The position numbers and the translations under genes are program-made. The notes under the pieces are model-generated. The model did not search any database, had not been told where the DNA came from, and worked only from the letters and a program-made list of their open reading frames with translations. A stretch of DNA of 40,652 nucleotides from Chloroflexota bacterium (lineage in GTDB: Bacteria; Chloroflexota; Dehalococcoidia; CAUJGQ01), in NCBI GenBank assembly GCA_963170165.1, contig CAUJGQ010000066.1:1-40652 (forward strand), written 5' to 3'. Shown piece after piece: positions 1 to 7,187 of this stretch (position 1 is the first letter of the stretch; the number at the start of each line of letters is the position of its first letter).

Positions 1-422
1 ATAGAGGCGCCACTGATCACCCCGACACGGGGCAGGTCATGGTCAATCGAGGCAACAACGCCCAGATCCACGCACACGATCAGCACGACCGGCGCCTGTG
101 CGACTACGTCGATGAGACGCTGGGGAACCTCGGTCTGTGCAACGGTGGTGGCGTCCACCGCCGTGGGGATGACCGTGTTGTAGGGGTTCTCCCCCGCGTT
201 CACCTGAGCGCGATACCGTTTTATCGCCGGGATCTGGCACTGCGCCAGCGCCGCCTTGGTATCGGGGTCACGCACCACGACAACCCGCCAGCCCTGACGG
301 TTGCCACCGCTGGAGGCGAACCGTGCATGATTGAGAATCGTGTACAGGTCTGAGTCTGGCACCGGGTCATCGGTGAATGCGCGCGCTGAGAATGTCGTGC
401 GCATCACCTCGTAAAGCTCCAT
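1..422 (-). CDS. Nitroreductase family protein, N-terminal part (cut by window edge)
   Basis: FMN-dependent NAD(P)H oxidoreductase of the nitroreductase fold; 140 codons are visible and the C-terminus lies left of base 1. Translating the reverse strand from the ATG at 422-420 gives a protein opening MELYEVMRTTFSARAFTDD, the usual start of the family with the R-x-x-x-S-x-R-x-F phosphate/FMN-binding element, followed by the typical HARFASSGGNRQGW segment. A GGAGG ribosome-binding site sits 6 bases upstream. It is the last visible gene of a minus-strand operon, 54 bases after the CocE-like hydrolase. Substrate is unknown; family members reduce nitro compounds, flavins or enoates. The frame is open to the window edge and no internal stop was seen. 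Confidence 0.85.
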   Translation of the reverse strand, partial: MELYEVMRTTFSARAFTDDPVPDSDLYTILNHARFASSGGNRQGWRVVVVRDPDTKAALAQCQIPAIKRYRAQVNAGENPYNTVIPTAVDATTVAQTEVPQRLIDVVAQAPVVLIVCVDLGVVASIDHDLPRVGVISGAS

Positions 423-476: not shown

Positions 477-2243
477 TCACCGCGGCCGAACCGGTAACAA
501 GATATGCGATGGTCGGGCGTCCTCGTGGTAGATCTGCTGCCTGGCCGGGAGTGTCTCCGTTTCTGTGGCGATCAGCCGGCCGGTGTTGGGGTTGGCGTCA
601 AAGCGCGGGAAGTTGCTGGAGCTGATCTCCACCCGGATACAATGGCCAGGCAGGAACACCGTGCTCGTGGCCCATAGATCGATCCTAAAACCGTAGACCG
701 TCCCTGGCTCCAGCAGTGTCGGGTGCTCCGGAGAATCGCGATAGCGGGCACGGATGATGCCATCCAGCAGGTTTTGGGCATAGCCGTCAGGGTGAACGTC
801 CACCAGCTTAGCGGTGAAGTCCGTGTCCGGTGCAGATGACGACGCCCACAGATGAACGACAACCGGCCCGGTCACTTCCAGCGACCGCGTCAACGGCGCC
901 GAGGTGAACACCAGCACGTCCGGGCGCTCCTCCACCGGGCGCTGATCCACAACCCCCAATGGCAGCGTCAGGTTGTGGCCACCCAGGGTGGGGGCGGGGT
1001 CGTTCGGGTCATAGGTGAAGCTATCAGCCGGCTCACCACCCGGCGGCACGGTGGAAAGCGTACCGTCTCCGTGCAGCGAGCTGGCATGGCCGTCGCTGTG
1101 GAAATACCAGGGGACGTAGGAGACATCAGGCGGTGGCCAGTCTGCGAGTCTCTGCCAGCGGTTTTCACCCATGGTGAAGACGGTCACCGGCGGGCCATCC
1201 ATGATGCCGGTGTCAATGTCCTTCAACCAGTAGTCAAACCAATTGAGCAGCGTGCCCCGTAGGTCGATCAGCGCGGCATCGCCGAAGTCGATGTCGCCCG
1301 TGCCGCCCGATGATGGCGTGTCATACGGGAGCAGGTGTGCCCACGGCCCCATGATCAGCCGCTGAGCCGCCCGCGCCCGCGGATTGCGGCTGCGCTCCCG
1401 GATGCTGCGATAGGCGTTGGGGGCGCCCTCGGCGAAGATGTCATACCACGAGCTGACATGCAGCATTGGCACGCTGACGTTCTCGGCGTGACGGCTGACA
1501 TTGGCGCGATGCCAGTACGGGCCGTCGCCGGCGTGCGCCAGATGCTCACCGAGGTACGGCGCCGCCTGCTTGATCATCTCACCCCAATCGCTGATCGGCC
1601 GGTGCCGGTACCACTCGTCTCGCAGTGGCGCGCCGAAGTTCGTACCCGGCCGAACGTACGCATCGAGAGCCGCCAGCAAATCCTCCCGCCCCTGGCGTTC
1701 CAGGGTATTGCGTCCTTTGAGAATGGCGTATGGCACTAACCATCCCCACATCGCTGCGCCGCCGGTGTGGTAGACCCAGCTTGCGTGGAAGTCCGACGAC
1801 GCCGAGACTGGCGCCATTGCCTGAAGGGAGGGAGGGAGGGGATCGTTGCAGGCGATGGCGTACTGGGTCAGACCCAGATACGACTGTCCGGTCGTGCCGG
1901 CCCGGCCGTTGGACCAGGGCAACCGCGCCGCCCACTCCACGCAGTCGTACCCATCCGCCACTTCCTGGAAGATGGGGTCATAGTTGCCCTCCGAGGCAAA
2001 GCGCCCGCGGCAATCCTGCATCACACTGACGTAACCGTAGCGGGCGTAAAACCAGGTGGATCCGTTCGGGTCGGTGCGCCCACCCTTGCCATACGGCCCG
2101 CGCGCCACAAGAACGGGGAAACGCCCCGGCGCATCCGGACGGTAGACGTCGGCGTAGAGCGTCACCCCGTCCCGCGTCCGCATCGGCACATCCTTCTCGA
2201 CGATGACACCGTACTGCCGCCTGGCATGCTCAATCACCGCCAT
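477..2243 (-). CDS. CocE/NonD family hydrolase (X-Pro dipeptidyl-peptidase S15-like)
   Basis: Serine alpha/beta hydrolase of the cocaine-esterase/X-Pro dipeptidase type, 588 aa from the ATG chosen here. The core opens with the family segment DGVTLYADVYRPDAPG, an oxyanion Tyr in RGPYGKGG, the nucleophile elbow GQSYLG (Ser121) and the His region GPWAHLL. The last third is the C-terminal jelly-roll domain (DTDFTAKLVDVHPDGYAQNL through RVEISSSNFPRFD). The start is uncertain: ATG 2243 has GGAGG directly abutting it, while a GTG at 2291 adds 16 basic residues without a ribosome-binding site. In the operon it lies downstream of the enoyl-CoA hydratase and upstream of the nitroreductase, which suggests ester or amide hydrolysis in a catabolic route. 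The true substrate cannot be told from sequence. Confidence 0.88.
   Translation of the reverse strand: MAVIEHARRQYGVIVEKDVPMRTRDGVTLYADVYRPDAPGRFPVLVARGPYGKGGRTDPNGSTWFYARYGYVSVMQDCRGRFASEGNYDPIFQEVADGYDCVEWAARLPWSNGRAGTTGQSYLGLTQYAIACNDPLPPSLQAMAPVSASSDFHASWVYHTGGAAMWGWLVPYAILKGRNTLERQGREDLLAALDAYVRPGTNFGAPLRDEWYRHRPISDWGEMIKQAAPYLGEHLAHAGDGPYWHRANVSRHAENVSVPMLHVSSWYDIFAEGAPNAYRSIRERSRNPRARAAQRLIMGPWAHLLPYDTPSSGGTGDIDFGDAALIDLRGTLLNWFDYWLKDIDTGIMDGPPVTVFTMGENRWQRLADWPPPDVSYVPWYFHSDGHASSLHGDGTLSTVPPGGEPADSFTYDPNDPAPTLGGHNLTLPLGVVDQRPVEERPDVLVFTSAPLTRSLEVTGPVVVHLWASSSAPDTDFTAKLVDVHPDGYAQNLLDGIIRARYRDSPEHPTLLEPGTVYGFRIDLWATSTVFLPGHCIRVEISSSNFPRFDANPNTGRLIATETETLPARQQIYHEDARPSHILLPVRPR
1826..1841 (+). 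other. G-quadruplex motif, G3-A-G3-A-G3-A-G4
   Basis: Four G-runs separated by single A residues, on the strand that serves as template for the hydrolase gene. Single-base loops are the most stable class of intramolecular parallel quadruplex. On the coding strand it encodes a Pro-rich loop (DPLPPSLQA) just after the nucleophile elbow, so amino-acid constraint may explain part of it. Confidence 0.7.
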
Positions 2244-2385
2244 CCTCCACAAGCTGATCCGCCGGCTCGTGCCCCGCGCCCGAGTGCGCACCGTCTGGTA
2301 GGTGGTAACGCTACTGCGGCTGGAAGCGAAGGGCGAGCCGGCAGAAACCCGCGCGGGTGCATCACGACGATGCCACTGCCGGACC

Positions 2386-3123
2386 TCAACCAGGCTGGAA
2401 GGAGCTGGTGGCCGGCCGGGCAGCGATCGCTGCCTCTCGCGCCAGCGCCAGCGGCAACGGCAGATCTAGCCCGTCGCCCACGGCGCGCTTAATGGCGGCG
2501 GCATAACCCGGCCTCAGCGCGGCCAGGCGGGCAGCAATCTGCTCCGCCGTGGCCTCCAGCTCGGCGCGCGGAACCAGCTGGTGGATCAGGCCCACCCGCA
2601 GCGCCTCGGCTGCAGTGATCGGCTCTCCGGAGAGGATCATCTGCAGGGCCGGACCGCGGGGGATGATGCGCGGCAGGGTTTGGGTGCCGCCGGCTGAGGG
2701 GATGTAGCCAAGCGTCACCTCGGGCAAGCCGAAGCGGGCATCGTCAGCGGCAACGCGAATATCGCACAGCAGGCTCATCTCGCAGCCCGCTCCTAGTGCC
2801 CAGCCATGGATGGCCGCCACCAGCGGCTTATCCAGCGCCAGCATCAGCCCCCACAGGTCACGCTCGCGCCGCGCCCGCCGGGCCGCCACCAGCGACGGCG
2901 CCGAGCCGAACTCCTTGACGTCGGCCCCCGCGCAGAACGCCTGCTCCCCCGCGCCACGCAACACAACAGCGCGCACGTCCGGATCGTCGCGCACGGCGAG
3001 GAGCAGCCCCCACAGCTCGTCGCGCATGGCAAGGCTGACGGCGTTGAGCGCCGCCGGCCGGTTGAGCGTTAGCCAGGCTACCGGGCCACGCTTGTCGTAC
3101 AGGACGAGTGGCGGATTCGCCAT
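2386..3123 (-). CDS. Enoyl-CoA hydratase/isomerase family protein (canonical active site)
   Basis: Crotonase-fold enzyme of 245 aa, expected to hydrate 2-enoyl-CoA to 3-hydroxyacyl-CoA in the cytoplasm. The CoA-binding loop FCAGADVKEFG (63-73), oxyanion-hole motif GWALGAGCEMSL, and both catalytic glutamates are present: Glu115 and Glu135, 20 residues apart as in the rat hydratase pair Glu144/Glu164. The start at ATG 3123 is preferred over the adjacent in-frame GTG at 3126; a GGGTGA element lies upstream. It sits immediately downstream (15 bases) of the tandem small-protein pair and is the catalytically intact partner of the degenerate crotonase at 3694-4452. Chain-length specificity cannot be assigned. 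Confidence 0.93.
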   Translation of the reverse strand: MANPPLVLYDKRGPVAWLTLNRPAALNAVSLAMRDELWGLLLAVRDDPDVRAVVLRGAGEQAFCAGADVKEFGSAPSLVAARRARRERDLWGLMLALDKPLVAAIHGWALGAGCEMSLLCDIRVAADDARFGLPEVTLGYIPSAGGTQTLPRIIPRGPALQMILSGEPITAAEALRVGLIHQLVPRAELEATAEQIAARLAALRPGYAAAIKRAVGDGLDLPLPLALAREAAIAARPATSSFQPG

Positions 3124-3138
3124 CACGTCACCCGCCGT

Positions 3139-3378
3139 TCACACCCAGTCGTGCTTCTGAATGGCGCTGCGCTCCTTGGCCTTGAGTGCGCGGGCCAGAT
3201 CGGTGTTGATCTTGTCGGTGAGCGCCCGCAGGCCCTCACGCCCCGGCCGCATCTCCTCGCTGCGCCACCGCCTCAGCTTGGCACGGTCATCATCAGACAG
3301 GCCGGCGCTTTCCAGGACTGACTGGGTGAGCATAGAGAACAGGGACCAGACTTCTTCTTCATCCACTTGGATGCGCAT
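3139..3378 (-). CDS. Small protein of unknown function, paralogue A of a tandem pair
   Basis: I do not recognise a family. The 79-aa product is highly charged, has no signal peptide or membrane segment, and looks helical. It begins MRIQVDEEEVWSLF and carries AKLRRWR at residues 33-39. An excellent ribosome-binding site (GGAGGAG, 9 bases before the ATG at 3378) argues strongly for translation. It aligns without gaps over its first 48 residues with the neighbouring 84-aa product (about one third identical), so the two genes arose by tandem duplication. Both lie between two crotonase genes in one operon, which hints at an accessory role such as a subunit, adaptor or regulator. That is inference only. 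Confidence 0.8.
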   Translation of the reverse strand: MRIQVDEEEVWSLFSMLTQSVLESAGLSDDDRAKLRRWRSEEMRPGREGLRALTDKINTDLARALKAKERSAIQKHDWV

Positions 3379-3396
3379 CCGTGAGGCTCCTCCGCG

Positions 3397-3651
3397 CTAC
3401 AGTTCCTTGCTGGAGACGTAGCGGCCCTTTTGTCGAATCAACTTGGTGGTCTTCTCGTCCAAGACGCTGCCCAACGACTCGTTGATGTCAATCGCCAGAG
3501 CCGCCATCTCGACGGTGCCGCTGGCACGGTCCGTCCGCCAGCGGCGCAGCTTCGCTTTACCGTCCGAGGAGACACCAGATTTGTCGATCATCTGCGAGAT
3601 GATCAGCGTCATCAGCGACCAGGATTCATCGGCATCGAGAATGATCTGCAT
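3397..3651 (-). CDS. Small protein of unknown function, paralogue B of a tandem pair
   Basis: An 84-aa soluble, charged, probably helical protein with no recognised domain. It starts MQIILDADESWSLM and shares with paralogue A the positions Ile3, Asp6, Glu9, Trp-Ser-Leu 11-13, Gly26, Ser28, Asp30 and the seven-residue block AKLRRWR at 33-39. The later Ile-Asn and Leu positions also line up after a one-residue gap. It has five extra residues at its C-terminus. GGGAG lies 6-7 bases upstream of the ATG at 3651. It is second in the operon, 42 bases after the crotonase-fold gene and 18 bases before paralogue A. The conserved Trp and the Lys/Arg block suggest a shared binding surface. Confidence 0.8.
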   Translation of the reverse strand: MQIILDADESWSLMTLIISQMIDKSGVSSDGKAKLRRWRTDRASGTVEMAALAIDINESLGSVLDEKTTKLIRQKGRYVSSKEL

Positions 3652-3693: not shown

Positions 3694-4452
3694 CTACTCG
3701 CCGTGGAACTGCGGCGGCCGTTTCTCGATGAAGGCGCGCACACCCTCAGCGCGATCAGCGGTGGATTGCAGGATCACGGTGACATCGGTCTCGTAGCGCA
3801 ACGCCGGTTCGAGCGGCATCTCCATTCCGCGCGCCACCACCTCTTTTGCGTAGCGCGCCGCGATCGGCCCGCGCCCGGCAATAACGGCGGCCAGCCGGTC
3901 TGCCTCGCCGGGCAGGTCACGCACTGGGTAGACACCGGTCACCAGGCCGCACGCCAATGCGTGAGCGGCGTCCAGCGGCTCGCCGGTGAGGAGCGCGTGC
4001 AGCGCCACACCACGACCAGCCAGCCGCGCCAGCCGCGCCACACTGCCACCGACAGGCAACCGGCCGGCCGCCGCTTCGTCGGGGAAGCCCAGCCGCGCAT
4101 CCGCCGCTGCCAACCGCACATCACACAGCAGCGCCAGCGCCAGCCCGCCGCCGTAGACGTCCCCCTCCAGCACCGCGATCACCGGCAGCGGCGCCGCGGC
4201 CACCGCTTGCAGTGCCCCAGTCAGCCGTTCCCCGTCATCCCAAGCAGCGAGCGCGGCCGTGTCCCACCCCCGGCAGAACCGACCACCCGCGCCGCGGATG
4301 ACGGCGACGCGTGCCCCATCATCCGCCGCCTCGGAAAGCGAATCCGCGAGCGTCAGCGCCAGGTCGGGCGAGAACAGATTGCCGTCGGTGCCTTCCAGCG
4401 TTAGCCGGAGCACTGTGCCATCGCGCCGGGCGTGCAGCCGCGTCTGCGTCAT
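3694..4452 (-). CDS. Crotonase-fold protein lacking both catalytic glutamates
   Basis: Enoyl-CoA hydratase/isomerase superfamily, 252 aa. The fold markers are clear: a CoA loop GGRFCRGWD (57-64, with Arg where Ala is usual), the oxyanion segment YGGGLALALLCDVRLAAADA and a normal C-terminal helix region. Aligned to its operon mate, the first catalytic Glu is Ala105 and the second is Asp125, so classical hydratase activity is unlikely. Other crotonase reactions (isomerase, hydrolase, decarboxylase, ring cleavage) or a non-enzymatic role are possible. It is the first gene of the minus-strand operon, divergent from the glycosyltransferase gene over 140 bases. GGGAGAGG precedes the ATG. In the 4453-4592 gap no convincing -35/-10 pair was seen. 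Confidence 0.87.
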   Translation of the reverse strand: MTQTRLHARRDGTVLRLTLEGTDGNLFSPDLALTLADSLSEAADDGARVAVIRGAGGRFCRGWDTAALAAWDDGERLTGALQAVAAAPLPVIAVLEGDVYGGGLALALLCDVRLAAADARLGFPDEAAAGRLPVGGSVARLARLAGRGVALHALLTGEPLDAAHALACGLVTGVYPVRDLPGEADRLAAVIAGRGPIAARYAKEVVARGMEMPLEPALRYETDVTVILQSTADRAEGVRAFIEKRPPQFHGE

Positions 4453-6164: not shown

Positions 6165-7187
6165 ATGACGCAGCCCGCCGCCGCGGCATCGTTCGCCACC
6201 TTCTACCAGGAACTGCCGGTGCTCGTCACCGGCGGCCTGGGCTTCATCGGCAGCAGCCTCGCTCGGCGGCTGGTGACGCTGGGCGCAAGGGTGACGGTGC
6301 TCGATAACCTCAACCCCGGCCAAGGCGGCAATCCGCACAATCTCGACGGCCTGGCCGGTGCGCTCGACGTGCGCCTCGCCGATCAGGCGGACCCGCAGGC
6401 TATCGGCGATGCCGTGGCAGGGCGGGCTGTGATCTTCAACCTGTGCGGGCGGGTGGCGCACATGGATAGCCTGCGTGACCCCTTCGGCGATATGCACGCC
6501 AACGTCACCGCCCAGATCGCCCTGCTGGAGGCAGTGCGCGCGGGCAGCCCGGCGGCGCGGGTTGTGTATGCCGGCACACGCTCGCAGTACGGCCGCGCGC
6601 TCACCCGGCCGGTACGCGAGGACCATCCCCAGCAACCAGCCGACATCAATGGCGTGCACAAGGCTGCCGGTGAGCGGCTGCACCTCGTGTATCACGCCGT
6701 GCACGGCATCGCCACCTGCTCGCTGCGGCTAACGAACATCTATGGCCCCCGCCAGCTGATGGCGCACGGGCGGCAGGGGTTCTTCAATTGGTTCCTGCGC
6801 CGCGCCATGGACGGGGAGGAGCTTCAGGTCTACGGTGACGGCAGGCAGGTGCGCGACGTGCTGTTCATCGACGACACCGTCACCGCCTTTCTGCTGGCAG
6901 GGATGACCACGGCAGCGGCGGGCCACGCTTTCAACATCGCTACCGGCGAGGGTCACGGTGTGGGCGAGCTGGCCGAGGCCGCCGTTGCCGCCGCGGGCCG
7001 GGGCTCCGTACGCTACATCGACTACCCAGCCGGAGAGAAGCCGATTGAGGTGGGAGATTTCGTGGCCGACATCACAGCGGCGCAGGAGACGTTAGGCTGG
7101 CAGCCCTGCACGCCGCTGGCTGAGGGGCTGCGCCGCACCGCCGCCTTCTTCGAGAGCAACCACGCCCACTACTGGACCGAACGCTAG
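6165..7187 (+). CDS. NAD-dependent sugar epimerase/dehydratase with Asn at the catalytic Tyr site
   Basis: Extended short-chain dehydrogenase acting on nucleotide sugars, 340 aa. The dinucleotide motif TGGLGFIG (22-29), the acidic cofactor residue in VLDNLNPG and the LTNIYGPRQ segment are present. The usual catalytic Y-x-x-x-K is N-x-x-x-K here (Asn162, Lys166 in INGVHKAAGE); Ser140 of the triad region is kept. Family memory says several epimerase-like clades carry this NG-x-x-K form with unassigned substrates, so it may not be a plain 4-epimerase. AGAGGA is 5 bases before the ATG. It lies between the methyltransferase and the aminotransferase, consistent with making a keto-sugar for amination. 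Confidence 0.88.
   Translation: MTQPAAAASFATFYQELPVLVTGGLGFIGSSLARRLVTLGARVTVLDNLNPGQGGNPHNLDGLAGALDVRLADQADPQAIGDAVAGRAVIFNLCGRVAHMDSLRDPFGDMHANVTAQIALLEAVRAGSPAARVVYAGTRSQYGRALTRPVREDHPQQPADINGVHKAAGERLHLVYHAVHGIATCSLRLTNIYGPRQLMAHGRQGFFNWFLRRAMDGEELQVYGDGRQVRDVLFIDDTVTAFLLAGMTTAAAGHAFNIATGEGHGVGELAEAAVAAAGRGSVRYIDYPAGEKPIEVGDFVADITAAQETLGWQPCTPLAEGLRRTAAFFESNHAHYWTER

Follow-up and report, generated by a model that had tools for sequence, protein, structure and literature searches.

DmdD (PDB 4IZB) is a homohexamer encoded by a single gene, and both catalytic Glu residues and the C-terminal tail reside in the same chain. Its C-terminal helices mediate oligomerization, and a C-terminal loop together with Phe255′, Lys258′, Arg262′ and Arg264′ of the neighboring subunit binds CoA (PMC3660561). 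A subunit hence lends its C-terminal helix and loop to the CoA site of its neighbor, and it is this part that is divided between two proteins, E1 and E2, in the locus described here, unlike in DmdD. The nearest described arrangement to E1/E2 is the PaaF-PaaG hydratase-isomerase from E. coli (PDB 4FZW; PMC4498308), in which two neighboring crotonase paralogues encoded in the same catabolic operon form a stable complex. Both PaaF and PaaG have activity, each makes up a complete homotrimeric disc of its own, and no small partners have been described (PMC4498308); here, in contrast, E1 has lost catalytic residues, E2 has lost its tail, and two additional small genes, A and B, lie in between. A hydratase that is split over two paralogous subunits and has an extra partner is also known from steroid catabolism, the ChsH1-ChsH2-Ltp2 hydratase-aldolase (PMC13101464), but this system has the MaoC (hot-dog) fold and an aldolase-type partner, whereas a crotonase fold and two helical proteins of 80 residues are found here. 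Our search of the open literature, with subscription papers outside its range, revealed no heteromeric crotonase that has a degenerate partner or small accessory subunits.

The window analysed, i.e. the whole stretch of 40,652 nucleotides, is an entire contig (C66) of a 4.4 Mb Dehalococcoidia genome that is 97% complete. A and B (Table 1) are a real, conserved pair of an undescribed family, and their most probable role is that of accessory subunits in a heteromeric crotonase of an unusual kind.

Table 1. Genes of the A-B locus and its surroundings in the window
Feature	Position	Strand	Remarks
E1, crotonase-fold protein	3694..4452	-	degenerate active site; directly upstream of A
Small protein A, 84 aa	3397..3651	-	first of pair
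Small protein B, 79 aa	3139..3378	-	second of pair
E2, enoyl-CoA hydratase	2386..3126	-	downstream of B
CocE/NonD-family hydrolase	477..2291	-	TIGR00976, E 5e-141; co-directional
Nitroreductase-family gene	3..422	-	cut by contig end

An earlier note on this DNA had proposed two small open reading frames with strong ribosome-binding sites and similar products, and all of this was borne out: both frames are present on the minus strand, good ribosome-binding sites precede A (AAAGGGAG) and B (GCGGAGGAG), and AKLRRWR as well as a Trp-Ser-Leu motif are common to both proteins. In a two-sequence BLASTP comparison B and A have 29 identities over 80 positions (36% identity, E 4e-14); the ungapped alignment over 48 residues claimed before is roughly correct, the first gap occurring around residue 43. 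Comparison of profiles built from 24 relatives each yields an E value of 1e-20; A and B are ancient paralogues. For close pairs of relatives dN/dS ranges from 0.06 to 0.37, i.e. A and B are under purifying selection. These values, together with the relatives found in 91 of the 294 sampled genomes (see below), argue that A and B are real genes.

Both proteins are predicted to consist of three helices (residues 7-24, 29-43 and 49-75 in A; 7-24, 29-42 and 48-77 in B) followed by a basic, conserved C-terminus, which has the pattern I-R-x-K/R-G-x-Y-x-S in A and RSxIxKxDW in B, the latter reading RSQIRKPDW in most relatives. The AF2 models, which were predicted from four sequences only, have a pLDDT of 86 for B and a weak 69 for A. 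The mean net charge of the C-terminal 18 residues is +4.4 (A) and +2.9 (B), whereas the overall net charge of the proteins is about -1. A and B of the window have no above-threshold match in Pfam, NCBIfam, PHROGs or PADLOC, the best scores lying far below the cut-offs, and 24 relatives of each searched against Pfam, and the B relatives searched against NCBIfam, gave weak, scattered matches only. Searches of PDB sequences with the A and B profiles retrieved nothing below an E value of 0.38, and Foldseek searches of the PDB with both models gave no match at E <1. In agreement with the claim that no described family corresponds to the pair, A and B thus appear to be a small-protein family described in none of the searched libraries. 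A helical hairpin of the WXG100/Esx type was considered and rejected, as neither alignment has a conserved WxG at the turn; an Esx-type fold match (Z 5.5, rmsd 8.7) lies in a range that is uninformative for helical models. Likewise, the idea that the C-terminus of B (IRKPDW) mimics the crotonase tail missing from E2 (EKRxPxF) was dismissed, this being a likeness by eye for which profile-profile comparison gave no support.

The note had named homologues outside close relatives as a test of the pair, and the pairing holds far outside them. With a single B sequence as query (E<1e-4), relatives were found in about 91 of the 294 genomes of the class sampled, i.e. in about a third, and 85 of these 91 contain at least two matches. 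A B profile run against 400 genomes from across the phylum matched in the same class only, all other classes sampled giving no hit, and no relatives of A or B were present in the viral contigs or plasmids searched. The nearest outside relative, L003, comes from a Dehalococcoidia MAG and was the sole relative found by a scan of contigs for short exact peptides. The 82 sequences placed in a tree fall into two clades (support 100), one holding every A protein and the other every B protein, which points to a single old duplication that preceded the spread or radiation over the class. One genome, G036, has two complete E1-A-B-E2 copies (contigs C30 and C53).

Forty-two loci were annotated by profile: 40 from as many genomes, L003 and the window. 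The gene immediately upstream of A is E1 in 41 of them, and E2 is downstream of B in 36, the order E1-A-B-E2 recurring across many families of the class. Of the six loci without an adjacent E2, five have this gene elsewhere in the genome. E1 and E2 hence stand side by side like PaaF and PaaG, either flanking A-B (36/42) or directly adjacent, as in many genomes that lack A/B. The reading frames of A and B share 1 or 4 bases in 17 of the loci, and the distance between them does not exceed 40 bases in 40, an organization that would fit coupled translation. In L003 a gene with a GIY-YIG domain (6598-6894) is inserted between B and E2.

The flanking crotonases, the CocE-like hydrolase and the nitroreductase listed in the note were all recovered (Table 1), the crotonases with ECH_1 matches at E 7e-38 (E1) and E 2e-57 (E2), and the proposed tie of a two-gene accessory module to crotonases was supported. 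The suggestion that this module is specific to the catabolic operon of the window was not supported, however: the hydrolase and the nitroreductase are peculiar to the window locus and lie outside the conserved neighborhood, whereas most relatives have an acyl-CoA ligase (further downstream in 28/42 loci), a membrane-anchored Rieske-like protein (further downstream in 22 loci) and a membrane Fe-S/CCG oxidoreductase, this last protein, which has 4Fe-4S and CCG domains, being seen downstream in 9 loci, a number limited by the length of sequence covered. The Rieske-like proteins follow E2, often two in tandem (e.g. L062:4022-4528, L058:4707-5330, L003:7641-8694); by eye, two Cys residues are kept and the usual His ligands are absent, i.e. 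the cluster may be lost, and only L003:8284-8694 passes the Pfam Rieske cut-off.

E1 and E2 constitute separate orthologous groups, which were compared by aligning 76 E1 and 71 E2 sequences together, both with and without A/B. The note had described the upstream crotonase as lacking both catalytic Glu residues. This stands for the equivalent of Glu144, which is Ala in E1 of the window (GGGLALA), while the equivalent of Glu164 is ambiguous, the sequence there being P-D-E with a one-residue insertion; moreover, GW replaces GA at the oxyanion position. Thus, E1 of the window lacks the combination of both Glu residues and oxyanion hole that marks a canonical enoyl-CoA hydratase, and only 1 of the 76 orthologues has the complete active site, both Glu residues being kept in 28 and Gly-Ala in 2. 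Several of the E1 proteins that have kept both Glu residues may be active. The C-terminal tail, in contrast, is intact and highly conserved in E1 of the window (DRAEGVRAFIEKRPPQFHG), is present in all 76 orthologues and is the best-conserved part of E1.

E2 shows the complementary pattern. E2 of the window belongs to the crotonase superfamily by its ECH_1 match and has both catalytic Glu residues and the GA oxyanion hole, and the same is true of all 71 orthologues, but its ECH_1 match ends at residue 223 of 251. The tail of canonical homo-oligomeric hydratases (EGxxAF...KRxPxF) is missing from it and has usually been lost from the orthologues; the motif EGxxAF is left in 2 of the 71, and many lack the last 20-45 residues. 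As a control we used other crotonases from five of the genomes, leaving out the E1/E2 pair of G108: all 24 keep the tail, and 17 of the 24 have both Glu residues. Most E1 members of one large family (f33) have lost the oxyanion and Glu164 loops, and this family also has the shortest E2. An E2 tail of at most 4 residues is found in 27 of 36 proteins with A/B vs 13 of 35 without, a difference that represents only 2-3 independent pairs or changes. E2-like tailless proteins without an adjacent E1 occur in other classes of the phylum, i.e. the loss of a tail does not by itself imply that E1 makes up for it, and in these classes it predates the pairing or has another reason.

A tailless E2 next to an E1 whose tail is its best-kept part is suggestive of a mixed ring with E1 capping E2, and we infer from the sequences what a complex of all four proteins, including its stoichiometry and reaction, might look like. 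E1 and E2 would come together as a mixed trimer or hexamer; the (de)hydration would be carried out by E2, and E1 would supply its C-terminal helix and loop to close the CoA site of its neighbor. A and B would, in the simplest reading, pair as a heterodimer that may bind the E1/E2 assembly via the basic C-terminal tails and either stabilize it or position the substrate. The acyl-CoA ligase often found downstream suggests that this substrate might be the acyl-CoA made by the ligase, and overall the arrangement suggests a single, unusual enzyme complex of all four proteins. We consider the chances about evenly balanced that A and B are accessory subunits or assembly factors, most likely as a 1:1 heterodimer, of a heteromeric E1/E2 crotonase. 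Only tentatively, and with distinctly less confidence, do we propose the specific scheme of a split by reciprocal loss, in which one subunit provides catalysis, the other the neighbor-capping tail, and the A-B heterodimer holds or tunes the assembly.

The history of the pair speaks in part against this proposal. E1-E2 tandems without A/B occur in many genomes, some with the two genes adjacent and some with a PHP-domain protein in between, which implies that A/B are inessential to the E1/E2 pair, and one genome (G113) has an intact A-B pair and neither E1 nor E2. Together, these cases characterize A/B as an add-on. On the E1 tree the presence and absence of A/B amounts to four changes, and A/B were either added to an older E1/E2 pair or lost from it several times. 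The PHP-domain protein (MKLDLHTHC...; e.g. L116:4282-4797, L112:4231-4782 and L126:4061-5207) is often found between E1 and E2 in genomes lacking A/B, as if the slot between the two collected accessory genes. The orphan A-B pair (L081:5288-5787) adjoins a LytR-CpsA-Psr gene, in a genome that has one crotonase only and no E1/E2.

The orphan pair in G113 and the many E1-E2 tandems without A/B would also be expected if A-B were a heterodimer with its own role in lipid or acyl-CoA metabolism, for instance binding acyl chains, the membrane, the ligase or the membrane oxidoreductase, and were only co-transcribed with E1/E2. The frequency of the acyl-CoA ligase downstream points in the same direction, but it is E1 that is the constant neighbor whereas the ligase and the other genes vary, nor do A and B resemble the families of acyl-CoA-binding proteins or carriers; we regard such an independent function as rather unlikely. 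Regulation of the operon, with A and B as nucleic-acid-binding repressors or translational regulators, would be in line with their small size, the positively charged C-termini and the conserved LRRWR. However, no helix-turn-helix or other DNA-binding family reached the threshold, the overall net charge is slightly negative, the genes lie inside the operon and not at its edge, and the control of one promoter would require that two tandem paralogues be kept, making this role improbable. Although two small adjacent genes with coupled translation recall a toxin-antitoxin system or some other selfish gene pair that was inserted into the operon, we reject this, and with it a phage or plasmid origin, as very improbable, since A and B are paralogous to each other instead of belonging to unlike families, show vertical inheritance, the E1 tree having few state changes, and have no copies in the plasmids, viral contigs, or defence and phage family libraries searched.

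If A and B are indeed subunits of a heteromeric E1/E2 crotonase, the locus would be a clear natural case of the conversion of a homo-oligomer into an obligate hetero-oligomer by complementary loss and the acquisition of dedicated extra subunits, within an enzyme superfamily that is among the best known, and it would give a function to a conserved, unannotated pair of genes present in about a third of the sampled Dehalococcoidia genomes. Moreover, many of the annotated tandem 'enoyl-CoA hydratases' of the E1/E2 kind may not be stand-alone enzymes.

Crotonases are numerous in the genome of the window (G000), with 46 crotonase-like matches as compared to 48 in its nearest relative, reflecting a large family expansion. 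Among four short E2-like crotonases from other classes (L181-L184), three have, by eye, a gene for a CaiB/BaiF-type CoA-transferase upstream.
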